From an uncultured Pelagibacteraceae bacterium (GTDB lineage: Bacteria; Pseudomonadota; Alphaproteobacteria; Pelagibacterales; Pelagibacteraceae), in assembly GCA_902524345.1 (NCBI GenBank), contig CABZCX010000002.1, positions 1 to 64,000 on the forward strand: 64,000 nucleotides of DNA. Direction: 5' to 3'. The translations under genes and the position numbers were made by a program. The notes below the pieces were generated by a model that saw nothing but the letters and a program-made list of their open reading frames with translations, had not been told where the DNA came from and ran no database searches. This document shows, in pieces, positions 235 to 14,606 of this stretch; within the stretch, counting starts at the first letter, position 1, and each line of letters begins with the position of its first letter.

Positions 235-990
235 ATGAGACCAAGAATAATACCTGGATTTCAAATTTCTAAAGGTGAACTTGTTCATATAATAGAATTT
301 AACAAAAATAGTAAGAGATATATCGGGGATCCTTTAAATACTCTAAGAATTTTCAATCAATTTGATTGTGATGAAATTAGTATTGTAGATGTTGATGCAT
401 GGAAAAATGGAATCAATTTTGGATTATTAGAAAAAATTTCTGAGGAAATCTTTCTTCCGTTATCTTACGGAGGTGGAATAAAAGATATTAATGAAGCATC
501 AAAAATAATTGGATTAGGCTTTGAGAAAATAATTTTTAATGACACAATATTTTCAAATATTAATTTAATTGAGGAATTTGCTGAGAATTTTGGTAGTCAA
601 GCTGTTGTTCTTAAAGTCAATGTAGTTAAATCGCAAAACATTTATAAAATATATGATCATAAAAATGACTTAATATTAGATGAAAATTTAGAGTTATTTT
701 TAAAAAAATTAAACAATATTAAAGCTAGCGAAATATCTGTAATTGTGACAAATTTAGATGGCAGTTTTTCTGGTCCTGACTTATTTTTTATTAATTATGT
801 AAAGAAAATTATAGATAAACATTTTATATATTCTGGAGGAATATCAAAAGAGACTGATTTTAAGGATTGTTTTAAAGCTGGAGCAAATGCAGTTATTTCA
901 AACAATTTTTTTATTATGAAAAAAAAAAATGGTGGAATTATTTTTTCAAATCCTAAAGATGTAAAGCGACAGACAGATGATAGAGTGTAG
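235..990 (+). CDS. HisF-like (HisF2/WbpI-operon type) synthase subunit for sugar amidation
   Basis: This 251-residue (beta/alpha)8 protein belongs to the HisF family. It has RIIPGF at 4-9, GDP at 31-33 and a YGGGIK phosphate loop near 78-83. The partner HisH-like gene ends one base upstream and the sugar amidotransferase start overlaps its 3' end by 14 bases. Histidine-pathway HisF uses two catalytic aspartates, D11 and D130 in Thermotoga. Here they align with Q10 and N129, so IGP cyclase activity looks unlikely. I infer that it passes ammonia from the HisH-like glutaminase to the amidotransferase, as proposed for WbpG/HisH2/HisF2 in Pseudomonas O-antigen synthesis. The fold is secure and the specific role is moderately supported. 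Confidence 0.85.
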   Translation: MRPRIIPGFQISKGELVHIIEFNKNSKRYIGDPLNTLRIFNQFDCDEISIVDVDAWKNGINFGLLEKISEEIFLPLSYGGGIKDINEASKIIGLGFEKIIFNDTIFSNINLIEEFAENFGSQAVVLKVNVVKSQNIYKIYDHKNDLILDENLELFLKKLNNIKASEISVIVTNLDGSFSGPDLFFINYVKKIIDKHFIYSGGISKETDFKDCFKAGANAVISNNFFIMKKKNGGIIFSNPKDVKRQTDDRV

Positions 991-3073
991 AATTTGTTTA
1001 ATTAATAGCAATCTACCAGGTGTATCCTTTGATAAAGAAATTTGTAGTATTTGTCGGAATTTTGATAATACAATTGATAATTTTAATTACTCTGAGATTA
1101 AAGAAAAAAAAAATTTAGTATCTCTTAAAAAGAAAATTATAAGTAAAAAAGAAAAATCAAAATATGATTGTTTAATTGGAGTTAGTGGTGGTTTGGATAG
1201 CACTTATTCAGCATTTTTATCTCATAAAATTGGATTAAATTCTCTACTAGTTACAGTTGACAATGGATGGAGCAATGTTGTTTCTCATAACAACCTATCA
1301 AAATTAATTGACTATACAAAATTTGATTTTCATAGTGTTCATTTGAATTGGGAAATCTTTAAAGAAATGCAAAAAAATTTTCTATTACAATCTTACCCCG
1401 ATGTTGAGATTTTAAGTGATCATTTTATATTTTCAAATTTATACAGAGTAGCAGTAGAGAAAAATATTAATTGTTTAATCAATGGGTTAAATTTTAGAAG
1501 TGAGCACTCAAATATTAAAGCCTTAGGATGGAATAAGAGAGATGGTTCTCATATTCAACAAGTTTTAAAAAATATTAAAGGTAAAAACGAATTAGAATTG
1601 TATCCATATTATAAATTTTTATATTTATCAAAAATTACTAAATTGTCAGAAATTCCAATTTTAAATTACATAAATTATAATCCTCTTAAAGCAAAAAAAG
1701 AACTTGAGGAAAAAATAAAATTTATTAGTTATGAAAATAAACACTATGAGTCATCTTTTACAAAATTTTTTCAAGGTTATTATTTAATTAAAAAATTTGA
1801 TTTTGATAAAAGAATTTTACATCTCTCAAGCGATATTAGAAATAAATATTGCTCTAAAGAGGAAGCTATAAAAAAAATAAAAGAACCACCTATACCAGAG
1901 TTTGAAGAAAATGAATTAAAAGATTTTATTAAGAAGAAATTAGATTTTAAAGATAATGAATTTGAACATATCCTTGAAAAGAGAGCAATTGACAATAAAA
2001 AATATAAAAAAACTCTTATAATAAAGACAACTGATTTAATGGTTAATTTATTTAAATCAATTTCAAACTATCTAAGATCTTTTGATTTTAAAAATGAGAA
2101 AAAAGAAAATTATTATTCATCAATAAGCTTTATTAATGAACCAAAATTTTTTGGTGGACCAGGTACATTTCAGAAAAACTTAACATCTAAGCTGAAACAA
2201 AAGAATTTTGTTATAAGATATAAAAATGACAATATTAAAACTGATTATTTTATAATAATTGGATCGTCTCTAAGAAGTTTTTTTTGGCTATTAAAAATGA
2301 AATTAAGCGGATCGAAAATGATACATAGAATTGATGGTGCTAAATGGCAATATAAATACAAAGGAAATTTGATTGAAAAATTTAAATCAATTTTGCAAAA
2401 CTACTTAATATTTTTTACTCAGTTTTTGGCAGATAAAATTGTATATCAAAGTGAGTATGTTAAGAACCTATGGACTAATAAATTTTTTAAAAATAAATCA
2501 ATTATTATTTATAACGGTGCCGAGAGAAATTATACGCTAAGAAAATTTTCAGATATTGAAAAACCCACTCTAATTTCAGTTGAGGGTAATATTTGTTCTG
2601 CTTTTAATTCACTAAATTTAATTAAATGTTTAAGTGGATATGACTATGAAATTTATGGAGAGATAGATGACGAAAGTTATGCAGAAAACCTAAAACATTT
2701 GAATAATGTGAGAATAAAAGGAATTGTATCAAGAGACAAAATCAAAGAGACTTTTAAAAAAAATAAAAAATATATATTTGTTTCATTAGAAATTAATACA
2801 GCATGTCCTAATTCTGTAATTGAAGCACTAAATTTCGGTATTCCAGTTCTAGGCTACAAAAGTGGAAGTATGGAGGAGATTGTTAACGAAAAATTCGGGA
2901 GATTAATTAACATTAATAAAAATTTTGAGATAGATCCTAAAGAAGTAATTAGCAAAATTAATTTCATAAGTAAAAATTACAATGATTTTAACCATAATTT
3001 AGAAAACCTTGATAAAAAATTTAATCTAGATTTTATGTCAGATAAATATATTGATGAAATTATTAAAACTTAA
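977..3073 (+). CDS. Fusion of N-acetyl-sugar amidotransferase (WbpG-like) with a GT4 glycosyltransferase
   Basis: The protein has 698 residues, and WbpG-type proteins are usually about 370-380. Residues 1 to about 375 match that family: two CxxC pairs (C4/C7 and C23/C26) that probably bind zinc, a PP-loop SGGLDS at 70-75 for ATP adenylation, and a KRILHLSS segment near the domain end. From about residue 385 the sequence becomes a GT-B glycosyltransferase, with a GGPGTF donor-side loop and a family-4 tail reading NSVIEALNFGIPVLGY around residues 612-627. The reading frame is continuous across the junction. I infer that the first half amidates an N-acetyl sugar using ammonia from the HisH/HisF pair, and the second half transfers a sugar. 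The gene overlaps the hisF-like gene by 14 bases and the next gene by about 20. Confidence 0.85.
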   Translation: MIECRICLINSNLPGVSFDKEICSICRNFDNTIDNFNYSEIKEKKNLVSLKKKIISKKEKSKYDCLIGVSGGLDSTYSAFLSHKIGLNSLLVTVDNGWSNVVSHNNLSKLIDYTKFDFHSVHLNWEIFKEMQKNFLLQSYPDVEILSDHFIFSNLYRVAVEKNINCLINGLNFRSEHSNIKALGWNKRDGSHIQQVLKNIKGKNELELYPYYKFLYLSKITKLSEIPILNYINYNPLKAKKELEEKIKFISYENKHYESSFTKFFQGYYLIKKFDFDKRILHLSSDIRNKYCSKEEAIKKIKEPPIPEFEENELKDFIKKKLDFKDNEFEHILEKRAIDNKKYKKTLIIKTTDLMVNLFKSISNYLRSFDFKNEKKENYYSSISFINEPKFFGGPGTFQKNLTSKLKQKNFVIRYKNDNIKTDYFIIIGSSLRSFFWLLKMKLSGSKMIHRIDGAKWQYKYKGNLIEKFKSILQNYLIFFTQFLADKIVYQSEYVKNLWTNKFFKNKSIIIYNGAERNYTLRKFSDIEKPTLISVEGNICSAFNSLNLIKCLSGYDYEIYGEIDDESYAENLKHLNNVRIKGIVSRDKIKETFKKNKKYIFVSLEINTACPNSVIEALNFGIPVLGYKSGSMEEIVNEKFGRLININKNFEIDPKEVISKINFISKNYNDFNHNLENLDKKFNLDFMSDKYIDEIIKT

Positions 3074-4373
3074 TTTAAATTATATATTTTTAATTTTTAT
3101 ATATTTTTTTTTGATCAAACTTAATATTGATCATTTTGTTTTTAAATCTCACTCTATAGATTATTCTTTTATAGATTTTTTTAAAAAATTTAATCTTTTT
3201 AGTATCATTGAAATTATTACGATTTCTTTACCATTCTTTTTTATAAAAAATAAGAACTTCAATTTTGGTTATTTATTTTCTGTAATATTTTATCTATTTC
3301 TTTTTATTCCTTTCATCTGCCTTTTTTTCGATCCAAGCTCAAATCTAATAAAGATTTTTTTTTCACACATTATTTTTTCCACACATTATATCTCTATTGA
3401 AACTAAAGAATTTTATTTTTTTATTTTTATTTTTACTATCAATATAAGTTTTTTATTTTTTTTTCTAACAACAAAAAGTTCTCCAATTAAAAAGTCTTTG
3501 AATATTAACAAAGATTTGATTGAAAAGATTTTGTTAATAAGTTTTTTGATTTTTTTTTGTTTATTATCATTTTTTATTTTAAAGGAATTCAATCAACTTC
3601 ATTTCGTCAATTACAGATCTAAGTTGAAGGGTTTGTTGGGGTACTATTTTTATTGGAACATAATCTGCTTGTTGCCAACCTTTTTCTTAATACAGCGTAA
3701 TAAATTACTTCATTATATGATTATATTGTCCTATATTTTTTCATTTGTACTCTTTAAAATAAAAATTTTATTATGTTTTATCATATTTTTGATTTTTAAA
3801 GATTTAATATATAATAGAATTATAAATTCTAAAGATTTATTAAAAACATTTCTAATCATTAATATTGCCACCTTAATTATAATTTTTTTAATAAATTTTT
3901 CTCTGTGGTACTTTTTTAAAATTCATGACCCAACATACTTCCAAAGAATTTTTGTTTCACAACCAAAAAATTTATTAATGTATTTAGATTTTTTCAATCT
4001 CAATAGTAACACAATGATGACTCATATTGGTATTATTGGAAAACTAACTCAAAATGATAATAATATTTTTGATCTAATTGCAAATTTTTATAGAGGAGGG
4101 AGCCCAACAAGTAATGTTTACGCGGTTGAGGGCATTGCAGCCTTTGGAGTATGGGGTATTTTTTTTTCAACGTTTTTGATAATTTTATTATCTAAAATGT
4201 TATCTTTATTTCTGTGTCAAAATACAGAAAAATATTTATATCTAACTTTAATCTTTCAGGCTGTTTATATGATTAATACTCCTTTTTTCACAAATTTATT
4301 TACTTATGGAATTGGCATAACATTAATATTTTCTCTGATTGGATTGAAAAAAAAAAATTTACATAATGCATAA
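3054..4373 (+). CDS. Multi-pass membrane protein, probable Wzy-type O-antigen polymerase
   Basis: This protein is very hydrophobic, about 439 residues, with ten or more predicted membrane helices separated by short Lys/Asn-rich loops. A longer non-membrane loop falls near residues 300-350 and includes a GGSPTSNVYAVEG stretch. Size, topology and position among glycosyltransferases fit an O-antigen polymerase, which joins repeat units on the periplasmic face. There is no sequence motif I can tie to a named family, so a flippase or acyltransferase is not excluded. I chose the ATG at 3054, just after an in-frame TTG at 3051. The start overlaps the previous gene and the end overlaps the next gene by 8 bases, so the block is probably one transcript. 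Confidence 0.55.
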   Translation: MKLLKLNLNYIFLIFIYFFLIKLNIDHFVFKSHSIDYSFIDFFKKFNLFSIIEIITISLPFFFIKNKNFNFGYLFSVIFYLFLFIPFICLFFDPSSNLIKIFFSHIIFSTHYISIETKEFYFFIFIFTINISFLFFFLTTKSSPIKKSLNINKDLIEKILLISFLIFFCLLSFFILKEFNQLHFVNYRSKLKGLLGYYFYWNIICLLPTFFLIQRNKLLHYMIILSYIFSFVLFKIKILLCFIIFLIFKDLIYNRIINSKDLLKTFLIINIATLIIIFLINFSLWYFFKIHDPTYFQRIFVSQPKNLLMYLDFFNLNSNTMMTHIGIIGKLTQNDNNIFDLIANFYRGGSPTSNVYAVEGIAAFGVWGIFFSTFLIILLSKMLSLFLCQNTEKYLYLTLIFQAVYMINTPFFTNLFTYGIGITLIFSLIGLKKKNLHNA

Positions 4374-5043
4374 TATATTTAAAAAAAACAAAGTTATAAT
4401 TCGAGGTATACAAAGAAGTGGGACAAATTTTTTAGAAAAGATATTATCTGAGCTGGACACAAAAATTATTAACAAGGGTAATATTGAAAGAAATAAAGCA
4501 GAGCATAAACATTTTAGAATTCAAGACAATAAGTCTTCTATATTTATGGATAAACAATATTTTAATTCAATTTATGTACAGAATATCCAAGAATTAAATT
4601 TGAAGTCATATAATAAAAAAAATATTAAAAATATCCTTATTATTAAAGATCCTGTAAATTGGGTATTAAGCATCAATAGATGGGCAAAAAAATGTAACTG
4701 GATTTCAAAAGATAAAAATCTAACAGATGATTATGATCTTATGTCTAAGTATTTGTTTGAATGGGATTGTTTTCACTTAAAATGGCTTCAATTTTCAAAA
4801 GACAAAGAATATTTACTAATCTTACAATGGGAAAACTTAATCACTAATTTTCATGAAAATTTAAAGAAGATAACAAATTTTCTTGGTGTAAAAAATCCAA
4901 ATATCAATCTTCAAATTTCTGATTTTAAAAATATTAACCTTTCTGAAAACTCTAAGATTTTAGAAAAAGAAAAAATTAATATAGAAATTTCTGATAAGAT
5001 ATATAATTTAGTTGAATTCAAAAATTTTAGAAAAATATATTAG
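4366..5043 (+). CDS. Sulfotransferase-family protein
   Basis: This 225-residue protein has the two PAPS-binding signatures of the sulfotransferase fold. The first is an N-terminal 5'-phosphosulfate loop, IIRGIQRSGTNF (about 11-22). The second is a 3'-phosphate element, IKDPVNWVLSINRWAKK, in the middle of the chain. Sulfotransferases move sulfate from PAPS to a hydroxyl or amine, and in a polysaccharide cluster the acceptor is probably a sugar. No transmembrane segment is evident. Its start overlaps the membrane protein gene by 8 bases and its TAG shares a base with the next start. PAPS supply is doubtful in SAR11, so another phosphate-linked activity or an exogenous donor is possible. Fold likely, substrate unknown. 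Confidence 0.7.
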   Translation: MHNIFKKNKVIIRGIQRSGTNFLEKILSELDTKIINKGNIERNKAEHKHFRIQDNKSSIFMDKQYFNSIYVQNIQELNLKSYNKKNIKNILIIKDPVNWVLSINRWAKKCNWISKDKNLTDDYDLMSKYLFEWDCFHLKWLQFSKDKEYLLILQWENLITNFHENLKKITNFLGVKNPNINLQISDFKNINLSENSKILEKEKINIEISDKIYNLVEFKNFRKIY

Positions 5044-5750
5044 TGATTTTTAGATTTAATAGATATTTTAATCAAAAATTTTTTTCTTTGATATTTTTAA
5101 TAGTTTCAAAAATTTGGTTTAGAAAAAAAGACTTTAAAGTTTACGGAAAAGACCATGGGAAATATTTTTTACCTAAGTTAAAAAATCGAAAATACGATAA
5201 ATGGATTATTTCCGCTGGAGTGGGGGACAATATTTCTTTTGATATAGAAATGCTAAATTTAGGTTATAAGATAATTTTTATTGACCCAACACCTTTAGCT
5301 ATTGAATATTTCAAAAATAATTTTGATCATAAATTTTACAAAAAAAAAACTATCTTTTATAAGAAAGGTTTGTGGAAAACAAAAACAAATTTAAAATTTT
5401 TTTATTCAGATAAAAATGTAATAAGCAATACTATTTCTAATTATAATCAATCAAATAAATCTATAGATATTGAAACTATTACAATTGGTGACATAATGTT
5501 GGAAAATAAAATTGATACATTTTTTTTGATAAAACTTGATATTGAGGGAGCGGAATTAGCAATAGTTGATTATATTTTCAAAAAAAAAATAAAACCATAT
5601 TACTTATTGATTGAATTTGATTTTTTAAAACAGCAAAATTTATTTAGAGTAATTATCAGCTTATTTCATTTATTGAAAAAATTAAAGAAGCTAAATTTCA
5701 AAATTATTTATATAGATAATTTAAATTTTACATTTAAGAGGGAAATTTGA
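5043..5750 (+). CDS. FkbM-family SAM-dependent methyltransferase
   Basis: This is a 235-residue protein. It has a Rossmann methyltransferase core: an AGVGDN loop near residue 58, then an acidic strand end IFIDPTP that would bind the SAM ribose. It also has the FkbM hallmark IKLDIEGAE in the C-terminal half. FkbM proteins usually O-methylate sugars or polyketides, and here a polysaccharide residue is the likely target. The start is a GTG at 5043 that shares its G with the previous TAG stop, and the stop overlaps the next TTG start by 4 bases. The N-terminal 30 residues are hydrophobic and basic, suggesting membrane contact. The substrate cannot be read from the sequence. Confidence 0.8.
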   Translation: MIFRFNRYFNQKFFSLIFLIVSKIWFRKKDFKVYGKDHGKYFLPKLKNRKYDKWIISAGVGDNISFDIEMLNLGYKIIFIDPTPLAIEYFKNNFDHKFYKKKTIFYKKGLWKTKTNLKFFYSDKNVISNTISNYNQSNKSIDIETITIGDIMLENKIDTFFLIKLDIEGAELAIVDYIFKKKIKPYYLLIEFDFLKQQNLFRVIISLFHLLKKLKKLNFKIIYIDNLNFTFKREI

Positions 5751-6853
5751 AAATTTTAATAATTGCTCCAGTCGAAACAAAATTTAAAACAGGCCTAAGT
5801 AATGCCGTAAAAACTACAAAAGATATTCTTAAAGAGGAACATGATGTATATTTAATAGACACTGCAGAGAATGTAAATACGGACAATATAAGAAAATTTT
5901 CTATTAAAAGATTAACTCTTTTTTTTAAAATTTTTTTACATTTTTTAGTTAAAATCCGGAAATTTGACATTGTTTATATGACGATTTCAATGTCATTAGG
6001 TGGTTTTTTAAGAGATATGATTTTTATTATTTCCTCAAAGATTTTCTCAAAGAAAATCTTTCTTCATCTTCATGGTGGTGGATATAAGAAAAATTTTTTT
6101 TTAAAACAAAATAGCCTTATTAAAAAGATTATAATTTTTACATTGAATAATTGTAATAAACTATTCATACTAAGTGAAAATTTTAGAGATGATTTCAGCT
6201 TTATAGAAGACACAAAAATTAAGGTACTTGAAAATACAATTAATGTTAAAATTGATAAATCAAATAGAGATATTGATTATTTGAAAATAATTTATATCTC
6301 AAATTTTATAAAATCGAAGGGTTATTACTTACTTCTAAAAACATGTAAATTATTAGCTACACAAAAGATAAATTTTAAGTGTGAAATGTATGGTAAATTT
6401 TTAAATATCAGTGATGATGAAAAAAATCTTGGTAAAGATCAATTAAAAAATGAGGTAAAAGAATTCATAAGATTAAACAAATTAGAAAATAATGTGACTT
6501 TTTCAGAAAATTTAGACTCTGATAAAAAGTACGAAAAGTTAAGAAATTCAAATGTTTTTGTTTTTCCCTCAACATATCCAGGTGAGGGTTTACCCTTATC
6601 TTTGATGGAAGCTTTAGTTAGCAAATTACCCATAATTTCGACAAATCATGCTGCTATCACTGATATTGTAAAACATAATTATAATGGATTTATTTTAAAA
6701 ACATTTAATGAATTAGAGATTGTAAATTACTTATTACAATTTACTAAGAATAAAGAATTATTTAAAACAATGTCTGAAAACTCATTAAAAATTTTTGATG
6801 AAAAATTTAATTATGTAAAGATTAAAGGTAAAACGCTTGATGAATTTAAATAA
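5747..6853 (+). CDS. GT4-family glycosyltransferase
   Basis: This 368-residue GT-B glycosyltransferase has an HLHGGGYKK loop near 107-115 in the N-terminal domain. It has an EX7E motif (E280 and E288, in a PGEGLPLSLMEAL stretch) in the nucleotide-sugar domain, followed by a STNHAAITDIV segment, both typical of family GT4. It probably adds one sugar to the lipid-linked O-unit on the cytoplasmic side of the inner membrane. The start is TTG at 5747, supported by an AGAGGG ribosome-binding site just upstream. It overlaps its neighbours by 4 bases on the left and 14 on the right, so it is translated as part of a tightly coupled operon. Donor and acceptor are unknown. Confidence 0.85.
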   Translation: MKILIIAPVETKFKTGLSNAVKTTKDILKEEHDVYLIDTAENVNTDNIRKFSIKRLTLFFKIFLHFLVKIRKFDIVYMTISMSLGGFLRDMIFIISSKIFSKKIFLHLHGGGYKKNFFLKQNSLIKKIIIFTLNNCNKLFILSENFRDDFSFIEDTKIKVLENTINVKIDKSNRDIDYLKIIYISNFIKSKGYYLLLKTCKLLATQKINFKCEMYGKFLNISDDEKNLGKDQLKNEVKEFIRLNKLENNVTFSENLDSDKKYEKLRNSNVFVFPSTYPGEGLPLSLMEALVSKLPIISTNHAAITDIVKHNYNGFILKTFNELEIVNYLLQFTKNKELFKTMSENSLKIFDEKFNYVKIKGKTLDEFK

Positions 6854-7904
6854 GAAAATTAAATGTGGAATAATCGGTTGTGGTAGAATTTTTCCAAAGC
6901 ATTATGAAATTTTCTCAAAAAAAATTATACCAAATCTTCAACTGATTGCCGTTTGTGATTTAAAAAAAGAAAAATTGAATGTAATTCAAAACAAAAAGTT
7001 AATTAAATTTCAAAACTATAATGAGATCTTTAAAATGAAAAATATTGATACCATAATAATTCTTACGGAAAGCGGAAAACATTATAAGATCGCGAGAGAG
7101 GCTTTATTGAGTAAAAAAAATATTATTGTTGAAAAACCCTTATGTTTAAAAATTAAAGAAGTAAATGATCTCATTAAAATTTCAAAAAAAGTAAAAAAAA
7201 AAATATTTGTTATTATGCAAAACAGATTTAATAATCCAATTCAACTTGCAAAAAAATATATTAGAAACAACAAATTTGGAAAAATAATAAATATCACTGC
7301 AAGAGTAAGATGGTCAAGAAATCAAAATTATTATAATCAGGCTTTTTGGAGGGGAACATGGAAATATGATGGTGGTGCTTTGACAAATCAGGGCATTCAT
7401 CACATTGATTTATTATATTATCTTGGAGGTAATATTGAAAAAACATTTGCCTTTAGTTCAAAAAGACTTGCAAAAATCCAATCAGAAGATACAGCTGTTG
7501 CAGTTTTGAAATTTAAAAGTGGTGCACTAGGTACTTTAGAGGTAACTACCGCGACTAGACCAAAAGATTTAGAAGGCTCAATATCAATTTTAGGTGAAAA
7601 GGGGACACTTATAATAGGAGGATTTGCAGCAAATAAAATTCAATTATGTGATTTCATAAATAAAAAAGACAATATCATTAAGAAAAATTATTATGAAAAT
7701 CCAAAGAATATTTATGGCTTCGGACATAAAAAAATTTATAGCGAAATTGTAAAAAGTCTTAAAAACAAAAAAAATGAAGCTATCCAAGCAAAACATAGTC
7801 TTGAAAGTTTAAAGATTTTACATTCTTTATATTCTTCAATCGAAAATAAAAAAATCTTTTCACCAAAAAATACTAAGTTTAATAACAAATTGAATAATGC
7901 CTAA
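6840..7904 (+). CDS. Gfo/Idh/MocA-family sugar-nucleotide dehydrogenase (WbpB/WlbA-like)
   Basis: This NAD(P)-dependent oxidoreductase has about 354 residues. The dinucleotide fold starts with GIIGCGRIFPKH at 10-21, the family EKP motif sits at 98-100, and a GGALTNQGIHHIDLL segment at 178-192 matches the catalytic region of WlbA/WbpB proteins. Those enzymes oxidise C3 of UDP-GlcNAc-uronic acid to a 3-keto intermediate. The next two genes are an acetyltransferase and an aminotransferase of the expected partner types, which supports this role. I preferred the ATG at 6840 over the in-frame TTG at 6837. The exact substrate is inferred from the gene trio, not proven. Confidence 0.85.
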   Translation: MNLNKKIKCGIIGCGRIFPKHYEIFSKKIIPNLQLIAVCDLKKEKLNVIQNKKLIKFQNYNEIFKMKNIDTIIILTESGKHYKIAREALLSKKNIIVEKPLCLKIKEVNDLIKISKKVKKKIFVIMQNRFNNPIQLAKKYIRNNKFGKIINITARVRWSRNQNYYNQAFWRGTWKYDGGALTNQGIHHIDLLYYLGGNIEKTFAFSSKRLAKIQSEDTAVAVLKFKSGALGTLEVTTATRPKDLEGSISILGEKGTLIIGGFAANKIQLCDFINKKDNIIKKNYYENPKNIYGFGHKKIYSEIVKSLKNKKNEAIQAKHSLESLKILHSLYSSIENKKIFSPKNTKFNNKLNNA

Positions 7905-8355
7905 GTTAAAAAGAAAAAAAATAGATATTAAAAAAGTAAAAATGGGTAAAAATGTAACTATTTATAGTCCTTCTAATATTTATGAATGTGAAATTGGTGA
8001 TAATTCATTTATAGGACCCTTTGTTGAAATTCAAAAAGGTGTAAAAATTGGTAAAAATTGTAAAGTGCAATCACATACTTTTATATGTGAGCTAGTAAAA
8101 ATAAAAAATAATGTTTTTGTGGGTCATGGAGTGATGTTTATAAATGATAAATTTAGAAATTATGGACCGTCAAATAGAAATAAAAAATTGTGGAGTAAAA
8201 CAGAAGTTGGTAACCAAGTTAGCATAGGATCAAATTCTACGATTTTACCTGTTAAAATTTGTGATAACGTAGTAATTGGCGCTGGCTCGGTTGTTACAAA
8301 AGATATTAATACCAAAGGTGTTTATGCGGGCAATCCAGCTAAGAAAATAAAATGA
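7897..8355 (+). CDS. Hexapeptide-repeat N-acetyltransferase (WbpD/WlbB-like)
   Basis: This short 152-residue protein is almost entirely left-handed beta-helix. Repeats of the I-G-x-N or I-G-D-N type run from about residue 30 to 147, for example EIGDNSFIG, VKIGKNC and NNVFVGHGV. It ends in a YAGNPAKKIK tail typical of sugar acyltransferases. WbpD/WlbB proteins acetylate the 3-amino group of UDP-2-acetamido-3-amino-uronic acid using acetyl-CoA. It lies between the dehydrogenase and aminotransferase genes, overlapping them by 8 and 4 bases, which matches the Pseudomonas/Bordetella trio apart from gene order. Other O- or N-acyl targets remain possible. Confidence 0.85.
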   Translation: MPKLKRKKIDIKKVKMGKNVTIYSPSNIYECEIGDNSFIGPFVEIQKGVKIGKNCKVQSHTFICELVKIKNNVFVGHGVMFINDKFRNYGPSNRNKKLWSKTEVGNQVSIGSNSTILPVKICDNVVIGAGSVVTKDINTKGVYAGNPAKKIK

Positions 8356-9455
8356 AAGTAAAATTTAATAATCTTTTCTTACAAAACAAGCCTATTTTGG
8401 AAGATTCAAAAAAAATATTTGTTAATACATTTAAAAATTCCAAATTTGTATTTGGAAGTGAGATAGATAAGTTTGAAAAAAATTTTAGTAAAATTTTGGG
8501 TTCAAATTATTGTGTTTCTGTAGCCAATGGTACTGATGCATTAATCATAGCTCTAAAGTGTCTTGGTGTTAAATATGGAGATGAAGTAATTACATCTGCA
8601 CATACCTGGGTATCTACAGCTGGGGCAATAGTCGCTGTTGGTGCAAAACCAATATTTGTAGATACAGATAAATTTTTTTCTATAGATCCAGATAAAATTG
8701 AAAAAAAAATCTCAAGAAAAACAAAAGCAATAATACCTGTTCATCTTTATGGACAATCTTGTGATATGGACAAGATAATTAAAATAGCAAAAAAAAATAA
8801 TTTAAAGATAATAGAAGATTGTGCTCAAGCTCATTTATCTAAATATAAAAATAAATATTTAGGAAATTTTGGTGATGTCGGAACCTTTAGTTTTTTTCCA
8901 GCAAAAAATCTTGGTTCAATTGGTGATGCGGGAGCAATAGTATGTAAAAAAAAAAATTTATATCAACTTTTAAAAAGGTATAAAAATCATGGATCAATAA
9001 AAAAAAATATTCATGAAACTCTCGGTATAAATTCAAGAATGGATAGTATTCATGCTGCATTTTTAAATAAAAAAATAAAATATCTAAAAAAATTCAATTC
9101 TAGAAGAAATAAAATTGCTAAGATTTATTATTCTAAACTTAAAGATAATAAAGATATAGAATTACCTCATTTAAGAATAAAATCTAAACATACTTTTCAT
9201 CAATATGTAATAAAGGTAAAAAAAAACAGAGATAGATTAATCCAATATTTAACAAAGAAAAATATAGAAGTCGGAATTCATTATCCAAAAATGGTAATTA
9301 ATTTAAAACCATATAAAAAAAATATAAATAAGAAAGAGTTTAAAAATTGTTTGAAATATGAAAATTTAATTTTATCTTTGCCAATACACCCTTTTTTAAC
9401 TTACAAAGAAATATTTTTTATATGTAAAAATATTAATAATTTTTTTAAAAAATAA
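8352..9455 (+). CDS. DegT/DnrJ/EryC1-family PLP sugar aminotransferase (WbpE/WlbC-like)
   Basis: This 367-residue protein is near the usual length for the family. The PLP-binding lysine is K185 in FFPAKNLGSIGDAGA. An ANGTDAL phosphate-binding loop lies at 58-64 and EDCAQAH at 155-161 carries the Asp that binds the PLP ring nitrogen. DegT enzymes transaminate keto-sugar nucleotides. With the adjacent dehydrogenase and acetyltransferase it would convert a 3-keto to a 3-amino group, giving UDP-2,3-diacetamido uronic acid after acetylation. Its start overlaps the acetyltransferase stop by 4 bases. The family is certain and the specific sugar is an inference from the gene set. Confidence 0.9.
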   Translation: MKVKFNNLFLQNKPILEDSKKIFVNTFKNSKFVFGSEIDKFEKNFSKILGSNYCVSVANGTDALIIALKCLGVKYGDEVITSAHTWVSTAGAIVAVGAKPIFVDTDKFFSIDPDKIEKKISRKTKAIIPVHLYGQSCDMDKIIKIAKKNNLKIIEDCAQAHLSKYKNKYLGNFGDVGTFSFFPAKNLGSIGDAGAIVCKKKNLYQLLKRYKNHGSIKKNIHETLGINSRMDSIHAAFLNKKIKYLKKFNSRRNKIAKIYYSKLKDNKDIELPHLRIKSKHTFHQYVIKVKKNRDRLIQYLTKKNIEVGIHYPKMVINLKPYKKNINKKEFKNCLKYENLILSLPIHPFLTYKEIFFICKNINNFFKK

Positions 9456-12923: not shown

Positions 12924-14606
12924 TTATTTTAATGAAAAAAATCTATAATTGAGAAATTTTTTTACCTCTATATTTTTTAAATTTTGCTCATAGTTTGTAC
13001 AAGGAGATTTTTTATAACCACAAAGTTCATTATTTTTGGTATAATATAAAACGAAATTATCATCATTTTTCTCATAATATGTAGTTTTTTTGTAGATTGT
13101 TGGATAAATATTTTTATCAAAATTATTATAAATTTTAATTAAATTTTTAGAAACAAGAACAAATATACTCAAAATTATTATATATTTTAATTTAGAAAAA
13201 TATTTATTTTTAATAAATAGATATGAAATTAAAAAAAGTTGGATAAAGATGTATGCCAGTCCGTAACGCATTATTGGAAATTTGATGAACCATAAAAGTA
13301 ATGCGATTAAATTTATGATAAACAAAATTCTAAATAATTTGTTATTTTCTTTTTTATTTGATTTATAAATTTTTTTTCTTTCCAAGATCAATAAAATCAA
13401 AATAAGAATTAAAAAAGGTGTGATTTTTTTTAAAATATGTAATCCATGCACATTTGACCACTCTTCGAGCCAAAAGAACTTTTTTAGATAATTTTTTTGA
13501 GACTCGATTTTATCAATATTTTTTCCCAGGCTTTTTTGTTTTTTATTATATGTATTCCAATTTTTTGCCCAGGCTTCTGACTCTAGAGAAATTTGATTGG
13601 CGTCAATAAAATTTTTATTTTCAGTATTGTACCAGGGTAGCTTATTTATACAGGTAAAGCTTGCAGGATAAACTGCACAACCACTTACAAGAACATTTTT
13701 GAGGAACCACAAAAACAAAAAAAATACACAAATCAGATTTGGTAAGTTAATAATTCTTAAACTCTTTTTGGATATCCACAAATAAAAAGATAGTATCAAA
13801 GGAACAAAATAAAAAACTTTCAGGGTAAAAATAAAAGAAGCTAATAGAGAAATTTTATTTTTTAAATAGAGTGTATTTGTCTCAAAATTTCTGATAAAAA
13901 AACTTATAAAATAAAGAAAGAAAATTGTTGCCACATTATCATTTCCATAATCACTATATCGATTCATTCTTAAACAAATAAATATTAAAGAGGAGACAAT
14001 AAAAAAATTATGTAGATTATAATAATTATCCTTTTTAAGGATTTTAGAAATTTGATTTATTAAATATAAAAGAAAAAATGAGAACGCTAAAGATATTGGA
14101 ATTATTGTACCATGAGCTCCAAAGATATGATTATTAAAAAATGCATTAATGTATTGTAGGATAGATATGTGTCCAAACCTAAAATGCATCAGAGATGAGC
14201 CAGATAAAATTTTGTACTCATTTACAATATTTGAAAATGGTAAATGATATAAAAAAGCATCAGGATCATAATTGTTAGAAAAAGCCACAAATATTATTGC
14301 TATAAAACTGATTTTTAAGGATGTAATTGCAACATCTAGTATATCTCTCAATTTATTTTTATTTTGGAAAATAAAAAAAACTATTATCAACAAAAAAATA
14401 GTTGTAGTGAGATTTTTGCTTAAGGGTAAAAAGAAATTTAAAAAAAATGAAATGAAACCTATGTATATAAAACCAAATAATCCACTTTCAACTGAATTTT
14501 GTTGAATTTGAATTTTTGATATTTTATTTAAATGGTGCCCCGAGCTTATTAAGAAAATTGATGATAAAAATAAATTTAAAAAAAGAAAAACCATAGTATT
14601 AATCAT
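12924..14606 (-). CDS. Multi-pass membrane protein, possible GT-C glycosyltransferase
   Basis: This 560-residue protein has a dozen or more hydrophobic helices. After the third helix a loop reads NNYDPDAFLYHLPF, with an acidic pair and a His. Such an acidic loop early in the protein resembles the first extracytoplasmic loop of GT-C enzymes that use polyprenyl-phosphate sugars. A large soluble segment follows near residues 325-380. The divergent neighbour at 14680 looks like a polyprenyl-phosphate sugar synthase, which would supply the donor. I know no precise family, so this function is an inference. The ATG at 14606 is the first of two (MINTM). It is convergent with the WaaL-like gene, with a 23-base gap and no terminator hairpin. 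Confidence 0.5.
   Translation of the reverse strand: MINTMVFLFLNLFLSSIFLISSGHHLNKISKIQIQQNSVESGLFGFIYIGFISFFLNFFLPLSKNLTTTIFLLIIVFFIFQNKNKLRDILDVAITSLKISFIAIIFVAFSNNYDPDAFLYHLPFSNIVNEYKILSGSSLMHFRFGHISILQYINAFFNNHIFGAHGTIIPISLAFSFFLLYLINQISKILKKDNYYNLHNFFIVSSLIFICLRMNRYSDYGNDNVATIFFLYFISFFIRNFETNTLYLKNKISLLASFIFTLKVFYFVPLILSFYLWISKKSLRIINLPNLICVFFLFLWFLKNVLVSGCAVYPASFTCINKLPWYNTENKNFIDANQISLESEAWAKNWNTYNKKQKSLGKNIDKIESQKNYLKKFFWLEEWSNVHGLHILKKITPFLILILILLILERKKIYKSNKKENNKLFRILFIINLIALLLWFIKFPIMRYGLAYIFIQLFLISYLFIKNKYFSKLKYIIILSIFVLVSKNLIKIYNNFDKNIYPTIYKKTTYYEKNDDNFVLYYTKNNELCGYKKSPCTNYEQNLKNIEVKKFLNYRFFSLK

Follow-up and report, generated by a model that had tools for sequence, protein, structure and literature searches.

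Can an N-acetyl sugar amidotransferase and a glycosyltransferase (GT) be made as one protein, and what would such a join do? The question is raised by a gene near the beginning of a 64,000-nucleotide stretch of DNA from an uncultured Pelagibacteraceae bacterium (GenBank assembly GCA_902524345.1, contig CABZCX010000002.1, positions 1 to 64,000), hereafter the window, which starts at the first base of the contig. The gene, at 977-3073 on the forward (+) strand, reads in the window sequence as one open frame of 698 amino acids without an internal stop, in which a half belonging to the WbuX/WbpG family of amidotransferases is N-terminal and a GT half follows. A preliminary description, made from the sequence alone, had proposed just such a single polypeptide, and this stands. 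We argue below that the product is probably a natural bifunctional enzyme.

The open frame and its two halves

The amidotransferase half comprises residues 1-370 (977-2086, +), as assigned from the family profile, an alignment and a tree. The WbuX profile TIGR03573 matches residues 1-333, over profile positions 1-343 of 344, with 211.9 bits, a small margin above its curated cut-off of 203.2. The PP-loop SGGLDS (residues 70-75; 1184-1201, +) and the two CxxC pairs previously noticed, C4/C7 and C23/C26 (986-1054, +), are all present, the cysteines corresponding to the zinc site of the solved homologue 8WEX (PMC10607449). The same study gives the longer cysteine motif of the family as CxxCxn[GN]xCxxC, from which the window protein deviates at one residue, with E21 in place of G/N. 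In a 66-row tree this half groups with five stand-alone Pelagibacteraceae WbuX proteins (support 100/98), and it retains 42 of the 48 positions that show conservation in at least 93% of 89 relatives. As a separate observation, a WbuX relative from the same genus (L039, 5143-6279) retains the PP-loop but only one of the four zinc-site cysteines, the other three having been lost.

The GT half (residues 381-698; 2117-3070, +) was delimited by Pfam, an AlphaFold2 model and structural comparison with Foldseek and VIA-align. Glycos_transf_1 (PF00534) scores above its gathering threshold at residues 566-647 only (30.5 vs 26.4), and PF13692 stays slightly under its cut-off (25.6, cut-off 27). The model covers residues 366-698 and was built on a 23-row alignment of GT4-type sequences, which favours a GT-B fold; its predicted local distance difference test score (pLDDT) is 81.4 and its predicted template modelling score (pTM) 0.81, and pLDDT drops below 50 in the first 13 residues and at model residues 25-28. 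It displays a complete GT-B fold with two Rossmann-like domains from about residue 381, and the earlier view that a complete-looking glycosyltransferase follows residue 380 is thus borne out, a missing fold having been named as what would contradict it. PglA is the best structural match (Z 27.4, 298 residues at 3.0 Å), HepE reaches Z 26.6, and the top three matches extend over 298-304 residues at 2.8-3.5 Å with Z of about 27. The structural evidence concerns residues 366-698 alone, a full-length AlphaFold2 run without alignment having given a pLDDT of 32.

An EX7E motif with two glutamates is a mark of GT4 enzymes. At the corresponding position (2798-2824, +, from the alignment) T608 replaces the first glutamate and E616, the second, is kept, this second position being E in 22/22 other rows. 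Because the first of these two glutamates is absent, we name the GT half GT4-like on its sequence and do not place it in CAZy GT4 proper.

In a 10-row alignment the C-termini of the stand-alone relatives (n=9) fall opposite window residues ~370-374, and residues 382-387 form the opening strand of the GT fold, leaving the domains about 10 residues apart. The short join from the usual WbuX C-terminus to the GT fold occupies residues 371-380 (2087-2116, +), according to the alignment and the AlphaFold2 model. As the stand-alone WbuX proteins end here, the fusion is head-to-tail and the join falls on the domain boundary. That WbpG-like proteins are normally separate and of about 370-380 residues, as had been stated, agrees with the best 80 loci among at least 553 relatives in GTDB contigs, where WbuX open reading frames (ORFs) are mostly of 363-400 amino acids. 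Note also that an in-frame ATG at 2039-2041 (codon 355) precedes an amphipathic-looking stretch, which BLAST aligns to the beginning of L135, a stand-alone GT; translation from this internal ATG could conceivably give a second product consisting of the GT alone.

Nearest relatives and other joins

The five loci closest to the window among these best 80 are from uncultured Pelagibacteraceae (L053-L057). Identity between the window and these relatives is 35-43% for HisF2, 40-43% for WbuX (38-42% in the search of GTDB contigs), 39-45% for the sugar dehydrogenase and 41-45% for the aminotransferase encoded in the same cassette, and the five are 47-82% identical among themselves in the same proteins. 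Since the divergence is similar across all four genes, that of the fused half is, by these identities, common to the whole cassette, and the fused gene does not stand out as a decaying one. A fusion-driven acceleration of the WbuX half was considered and rejected, HisF2, dehydrogenase and aminotransferase being about equally distant from the relatives, so that the divergence is not fusion-specific. Nor is a pseudogene favoured, given the open frame, the 42/48 conserved positions kept and a divergence shared by the entire cassette.

In all five relatives the gene order is hisF-wbuX-dehydrogenase, the dehydrogenase gene coming directly after a stand-alone wbuX with a 4-nucleotide (nt) overlap in 4/5 and a 2-nt gap in L057. 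The aminotransferase gene comes after the dehydrogenase gene, with one extra gene between them in L055 and L056, and the gene preceding hisF is HisH by test in L053; in the remaining four, only its length and place point to HisH. Between wbuX and the dehydrogenase gene, the window has the GT half and four further genes (3051-6853). Insertion at the wbuX/dehydrogenase boundary is the simplest reading, gene loss in the relatives being the alternative. A block of glycan-assembly genes would have come to sit between the two, and DNA entering at the 4-nt overlap could delete the wbuX stop, linking wbuX to the incoming GT gene. The supposition that the GT half shares homology with the gene that follows wbuX in these relatives proved wrong, that gene being the dehydrogenase.

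Other joined frames were looked for in three genome samples besides the nearest loci, a set beyond whose best 80 rarer cases may exist. The genus sample consisted of 300 genomes queried with the window protein, which a distant WbuX could escape; 51/300 matched, own genome included, the seven matches ranked next to it being stand-alone frames of 368-382 codons with 32-42% identity. Of four further genus frames of at least 640 codons, the three that were judged (G037, G261, G312) are, by eye, class II glutaminase-WbuX proteins. The class sample (289 genomes; frames of at least 640 codons and at least 80 bits inspected) gave six frames besides the own: G436 is a HisF2-WbuX fusion by family scan and G376 likewise by eye, G340 and G523 are by eye nonribosomal peptide synthetase (NRPS)-like, and G467 and G612 have, again by eye, an arginine-rich upstream reading and no GT after WbuX. 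In the third sample, 296 genomes from the phylum of G728 (listed frames of at least 640 codons and at least 100 bits inspected), G728 itself has the reverse order, and the four other frames are by eye three glutaminase-WbuX and one NRPS-like. The fusion was found neither in viral contigs (close relatives only) nor in phages, nor in plasmids, where 8 records matched, none spanning 80% of the query.

Reverse-order fusions, GT4 then WbuX, are represented by three Bacteroidota proteins of 760-801 residues among the best 80 loci (L065, L105, L129), in which a GT4-type domain (PF00534, 56-70 bits) at the N-terminus precedes WbuX (259-305 bits). Their frames recur in whole-genome records, which are the same assemblies reread and not new data. 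In L126, the locus closest to L129 in the tree, GT and WbuX are separate genes overlapping by 11 nt. Across the neighbourhoods of 89 loci, a same-strand ORF lies within 150 nt downstream of wbuX in 80 and upstream in 78; 77 of the 80 downstream neighbours (two duplicates and L114 dropped) and 73 of the 78 upstream ones (two duplicates, L089, L114 and L118 dropped) entered the test. A GT4-type gene is the commonest downstream neighbour, found next to wbuX in 27/77 neighbourhoods, and is next upstream in 12-13 of 73.

WbuX is, then, a fusion-prone domain. The WbuX-then-GT order is unique within the searched material, and the joining of the two enzyme kinds as such is not. The earlier remark that no described example was known agrees, for this order, with the open-access literature (most subscription papers lie outside that coverage), where no description of it was found, but it does not extend to GT4/WbuX joins in general, since those in reverse order exist. 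We also observed a WbuX-like domain inside NRPS-type proteins (L047 1157-6757, L048 1374-5597, L154 2022-6041), where, by eye, it apparently splits the adenylation domain into a core and a small C-terminal part, with a carrier domain after it.

Proposed action and competing readings

HisH2 and HisF2 are the ammonia suppliers of the WbuX/WbpG family. In the window they would deliver ammonia to the WbuX half, which would use ATP to activate the N-acetyl group on a diacetamido sugar of the hexuronic type and form an acetamidino group, and the tethered GT half would attach this amidinated sugar, or the one after it, to a lipid-linked repeat unit. Such an amidotransferase is proposed, in the structural study (PMC10607449), to turn a sugar N-acetyl into an acetamidino group with ammonia, ATP being converted to AMP and pyrophosphate (PPi). 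A benefit from tethering both steps, and a coupling of amidination to transfer, are plausible. A stricter version, in which the WbuX half acts on the donor sugar, or on the just-transferred acceptor end, within the GT half, so that amidination is obligatorily coupled to transfer, appears doubtful; if true, the numerous genomes in which wbuX and a GT gene are neighbours would couple the two steps via a protein complex.

Taken together, we consider it reasonably likely that the in-frame fusion is natural and unites two enzymes from a single surface-polysaccharide cluster. A number of observations weigh against this. The WbuX-then-GT order occurs in 0/80 of the nearest loci, in the own genome only among the 300 genus genomes and again among the 289 class genomes, and not at all among the matches listed from the 296 genomes of the phylum of G728; a close homologue of the GT half was not found in 399 genus genomes, which gave eight weak matches besides the own. 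The branch of the WbuX half is long (1.91, against a median of 0.44 for end branches), and the tree program marks its placement as unsure. This half is changed at 6/48 conserved positions, compared with 0-1 lost by each of five among the 89 relatives under the same counting, and Thr stands in place of H93, invariant in 89/89 relatives. In the GT half, the first EX7E position, Thr in the window, is E in 17/22, D in 3/22, N in 1/22 and A in 1/22 of the other rows. Finally, a UDP-GlcNAc 2-epimerase (PF02350) was not found in the own genome, which is 90% complete.

The fusion may also be real and yet imply no coupling, a stop having been lost at the insertion of the gene block and the two domains remaining independent, tethered and devoted to different sugars; we regard this as somewhat unlikely. 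The GT half is unlike the dehydrogenase that adjoins wbuX in the nearest relatives, WbuX is found fused to a range of partners (HisF2, class II glutaminase, NRPS-like modules, GT4), and the join of about 10 residues carries no sign of an evolved linker, all of which would fit such an accident. However, the position of GT4-type genes as commonest downstream neighbours (27/77) and the reverse-order GT4-WbuX joins suggest a pathway relation and not chance.

That the cell has separate, overlapping genes, merged by a single-base indel of the assembly in the A-rich stretch at ~2094-2125, is improbable. The elements required are at hand (2094-2136, +), since with one missing base the out-of-frame ATG at 2094 and the third-frame stop at 2134 would yield two genes overlapping by ~43 nt; overlaps of 1-23 nt occur between neighbouring listed ORFs in the cluster and one of 41 nt between a later pair in the window, start positions being assigned mechanically, and the fusion is known from one genome only. 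The error would nevertheless have to lie precisely at the domain boundary, and a spare ATG nearby is unsurprising in an AT-rich genome (window GC 0.28). Frame 0 is best in 32/32 20-codon windows over residues 301-475, a short stretch in which it wins mainly through stops in the other frames. A split-gene check was made on ten ORFs, nine of them picked as short, adjacent or overlapping, with the rest of the window outside it; 7/9 of those picked match families of their own and not parts of a single gene, and the 2/9 that match nothing are uninformative.

It is very improbable that the GT half has lost its transfer activity and instead provides the amidotransferase with a module for binding or membrane docking, for although T608 stands where 20/22 rows have E or D, 2/22 likewise lack an acidic residue there, and the complete GT-B fold of the model, the second glutamate and the Pfam match are all retained. 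A plain assembly chimera of unrelated loci is unlikely as well, because in the relatives the genes flanking the join on either side form a single syntenic block.

The gene cluster and known systems

Upstream of the fusion gene lie the C-terminal fragment of a HisH-like class I glutaminase in the HisH2/WbuY position (3-233, +; PF00117 27.6 bits, gathering 22.8), truncated by the contig start, and a HisF2/WbuZ-like ammonia-handling partner of 251 amino acids (235-990, +; PF00977 130 bits), whose gene has a 14-nt overlap with the fusion gene. HisH2/HisF2 partner genes are thus encoded next to WbuX, although the HisF2-like gene scores under the cut-offs of the NCBIfam equivalogs (183 for AglZ/HisF2, cut-off 310; 169.6 for WbuZ, cut-off 299.7).

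Downstream, all on the + strand, follow genes for a hydrophobic protein (3051-4373) without a family match above cut-off, presumably polymerase-like from its position; a sulfotransferase (4366-5043; PF00685 45.8 bits); an FkbM-type methyltransferase (5043-5750; TIGR01444 51.2 bits, above cut-off); a separate GT4-type glycosyltransferase (5747-6853; PF00534 99.1 bits); a Gfo/Idh/MocA sugar dehydrogenase (6837-7904), assigned from synteny and its best PDB chains, 3q2k and 3q2i; a hexapeptide acetyltransferase (7897-8355; PF00132); and a DegT/DnrJ/EryC1 sugar aminotransferase (8352-9455; PF01041 347.7 bits), whose PDB matches include WbpE chains, though not as best. With more glycan genes beyond 9455, among them one for a Wzy_C protein, the region is a surface-polysaccharide cluster. 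The chains 3q2i and 3q2k we take to be WlbA enzymes acting on UDP-GlcNAcA, and the dehydrogenase, acetyltransferase and aminotransferase together suggest a diacetamido hexuronic acid as the substrate. The exact hexuronic acid and its configuration are uncertain, because the own genome, at 90% completeness, shows no PF02350 match and has one nucleotide-sugar dehydrogenase above the PF03721 cut-off. Two side observations concern the cluster: the sulfotransferase suggests that this Pelagibacter-like cell has a surface glycan that is sulfated, and a 560-residue ORF at 12924-14606 (-) is without a Pfam match at E 0.001.

The window protein resembles the WbuX/WbpG family (TIGR03573; 8WEX, PMC10607449) in its PP-loop, its four cysteines, a score above cut-off and the adjoining HisH/HisF genes. 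It differs from that family, whose members are mostly stand-alone, in running on into a GT-B domain and at the 6/48 conserved positions. In the limited literature covered (chiefly PMC10607449), what is known of WbpG/WbuX comes from gene clusters and a single crystal structure that lacks bound sugar, and no evidence was found there that settles whether amidination takes place on the nucleotide sugar or later. The fusion to a GT, with the reverse joins elsewhere, suggests which enzyme WbuX may work beside; it offers a single protein for testing the order of amidination and transfer, and may help to locate the point in the pathway at which the sugar is modified.

In the Pseudomonas aeruginosa O-antigen locus (PMC13277307), hisH2, hisF2, wbpG and the glycosyltransferase gene wbpH stand together, wbpG and wbpH having consecutive locus tags. 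Unlike the window fusion, wbpG and wbpH are two separate genes, and the likeness is one of gene position. The GT half shares its GT-B fold with PglA (8dqd/8dvz), HepE (4xso), SenB and BshA (Z 25-27, ~290-300 residues) at 10-18% identity, a likeness of fold that does not give donor or acceptor.

The Bacteroidota proteins L065 (760 amino acids), L105 (801) and L129 (795) likewise hold both kinds of domain in one frame, but with the GT first. In L105 and L129 the GT part can be aligned to the window GT half only within a portion of the C-terminal domain, and that of L065 gives no BLAST match. Because their WbuX parts fall in other branches of the tree, an independent origin of the two kinds of fusion is likely.

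WbuX has been joined to other partners as well. HisF2-WbuX fusions, whose barrel delivers ammonia, are found in L042 (1407-3644) and L114 (136-2190) by family scan and in L040 (604-3021) by eye. Class II glutaminase-WbuX proteins are L045 and L063 by family scan and, by eye from an MCGIFG start, L010, L046, L155-L157, L161 and L162; three are from the same genus as the window (L010 733-2691, L161 1100-3034, L162 181-2148, by eye), L155-L157 belong to the phylum of G728, and the WbuX parts of L045, L063 and L114 score under the TIGR03573 cut-off. As an aside, such a glutaminase-WbuX protein is an amidotransferase that might do without HisH2/HisF2. As one case from one species, the window fusion carries modest general weight and is a modest variation on known enzyme joins: as in the HisF2- and glutaminase-WbuX fusions, WbuX is joined to a pathway partner, theirs feeding it ammonia and that of the window being a glycosyltransferase.

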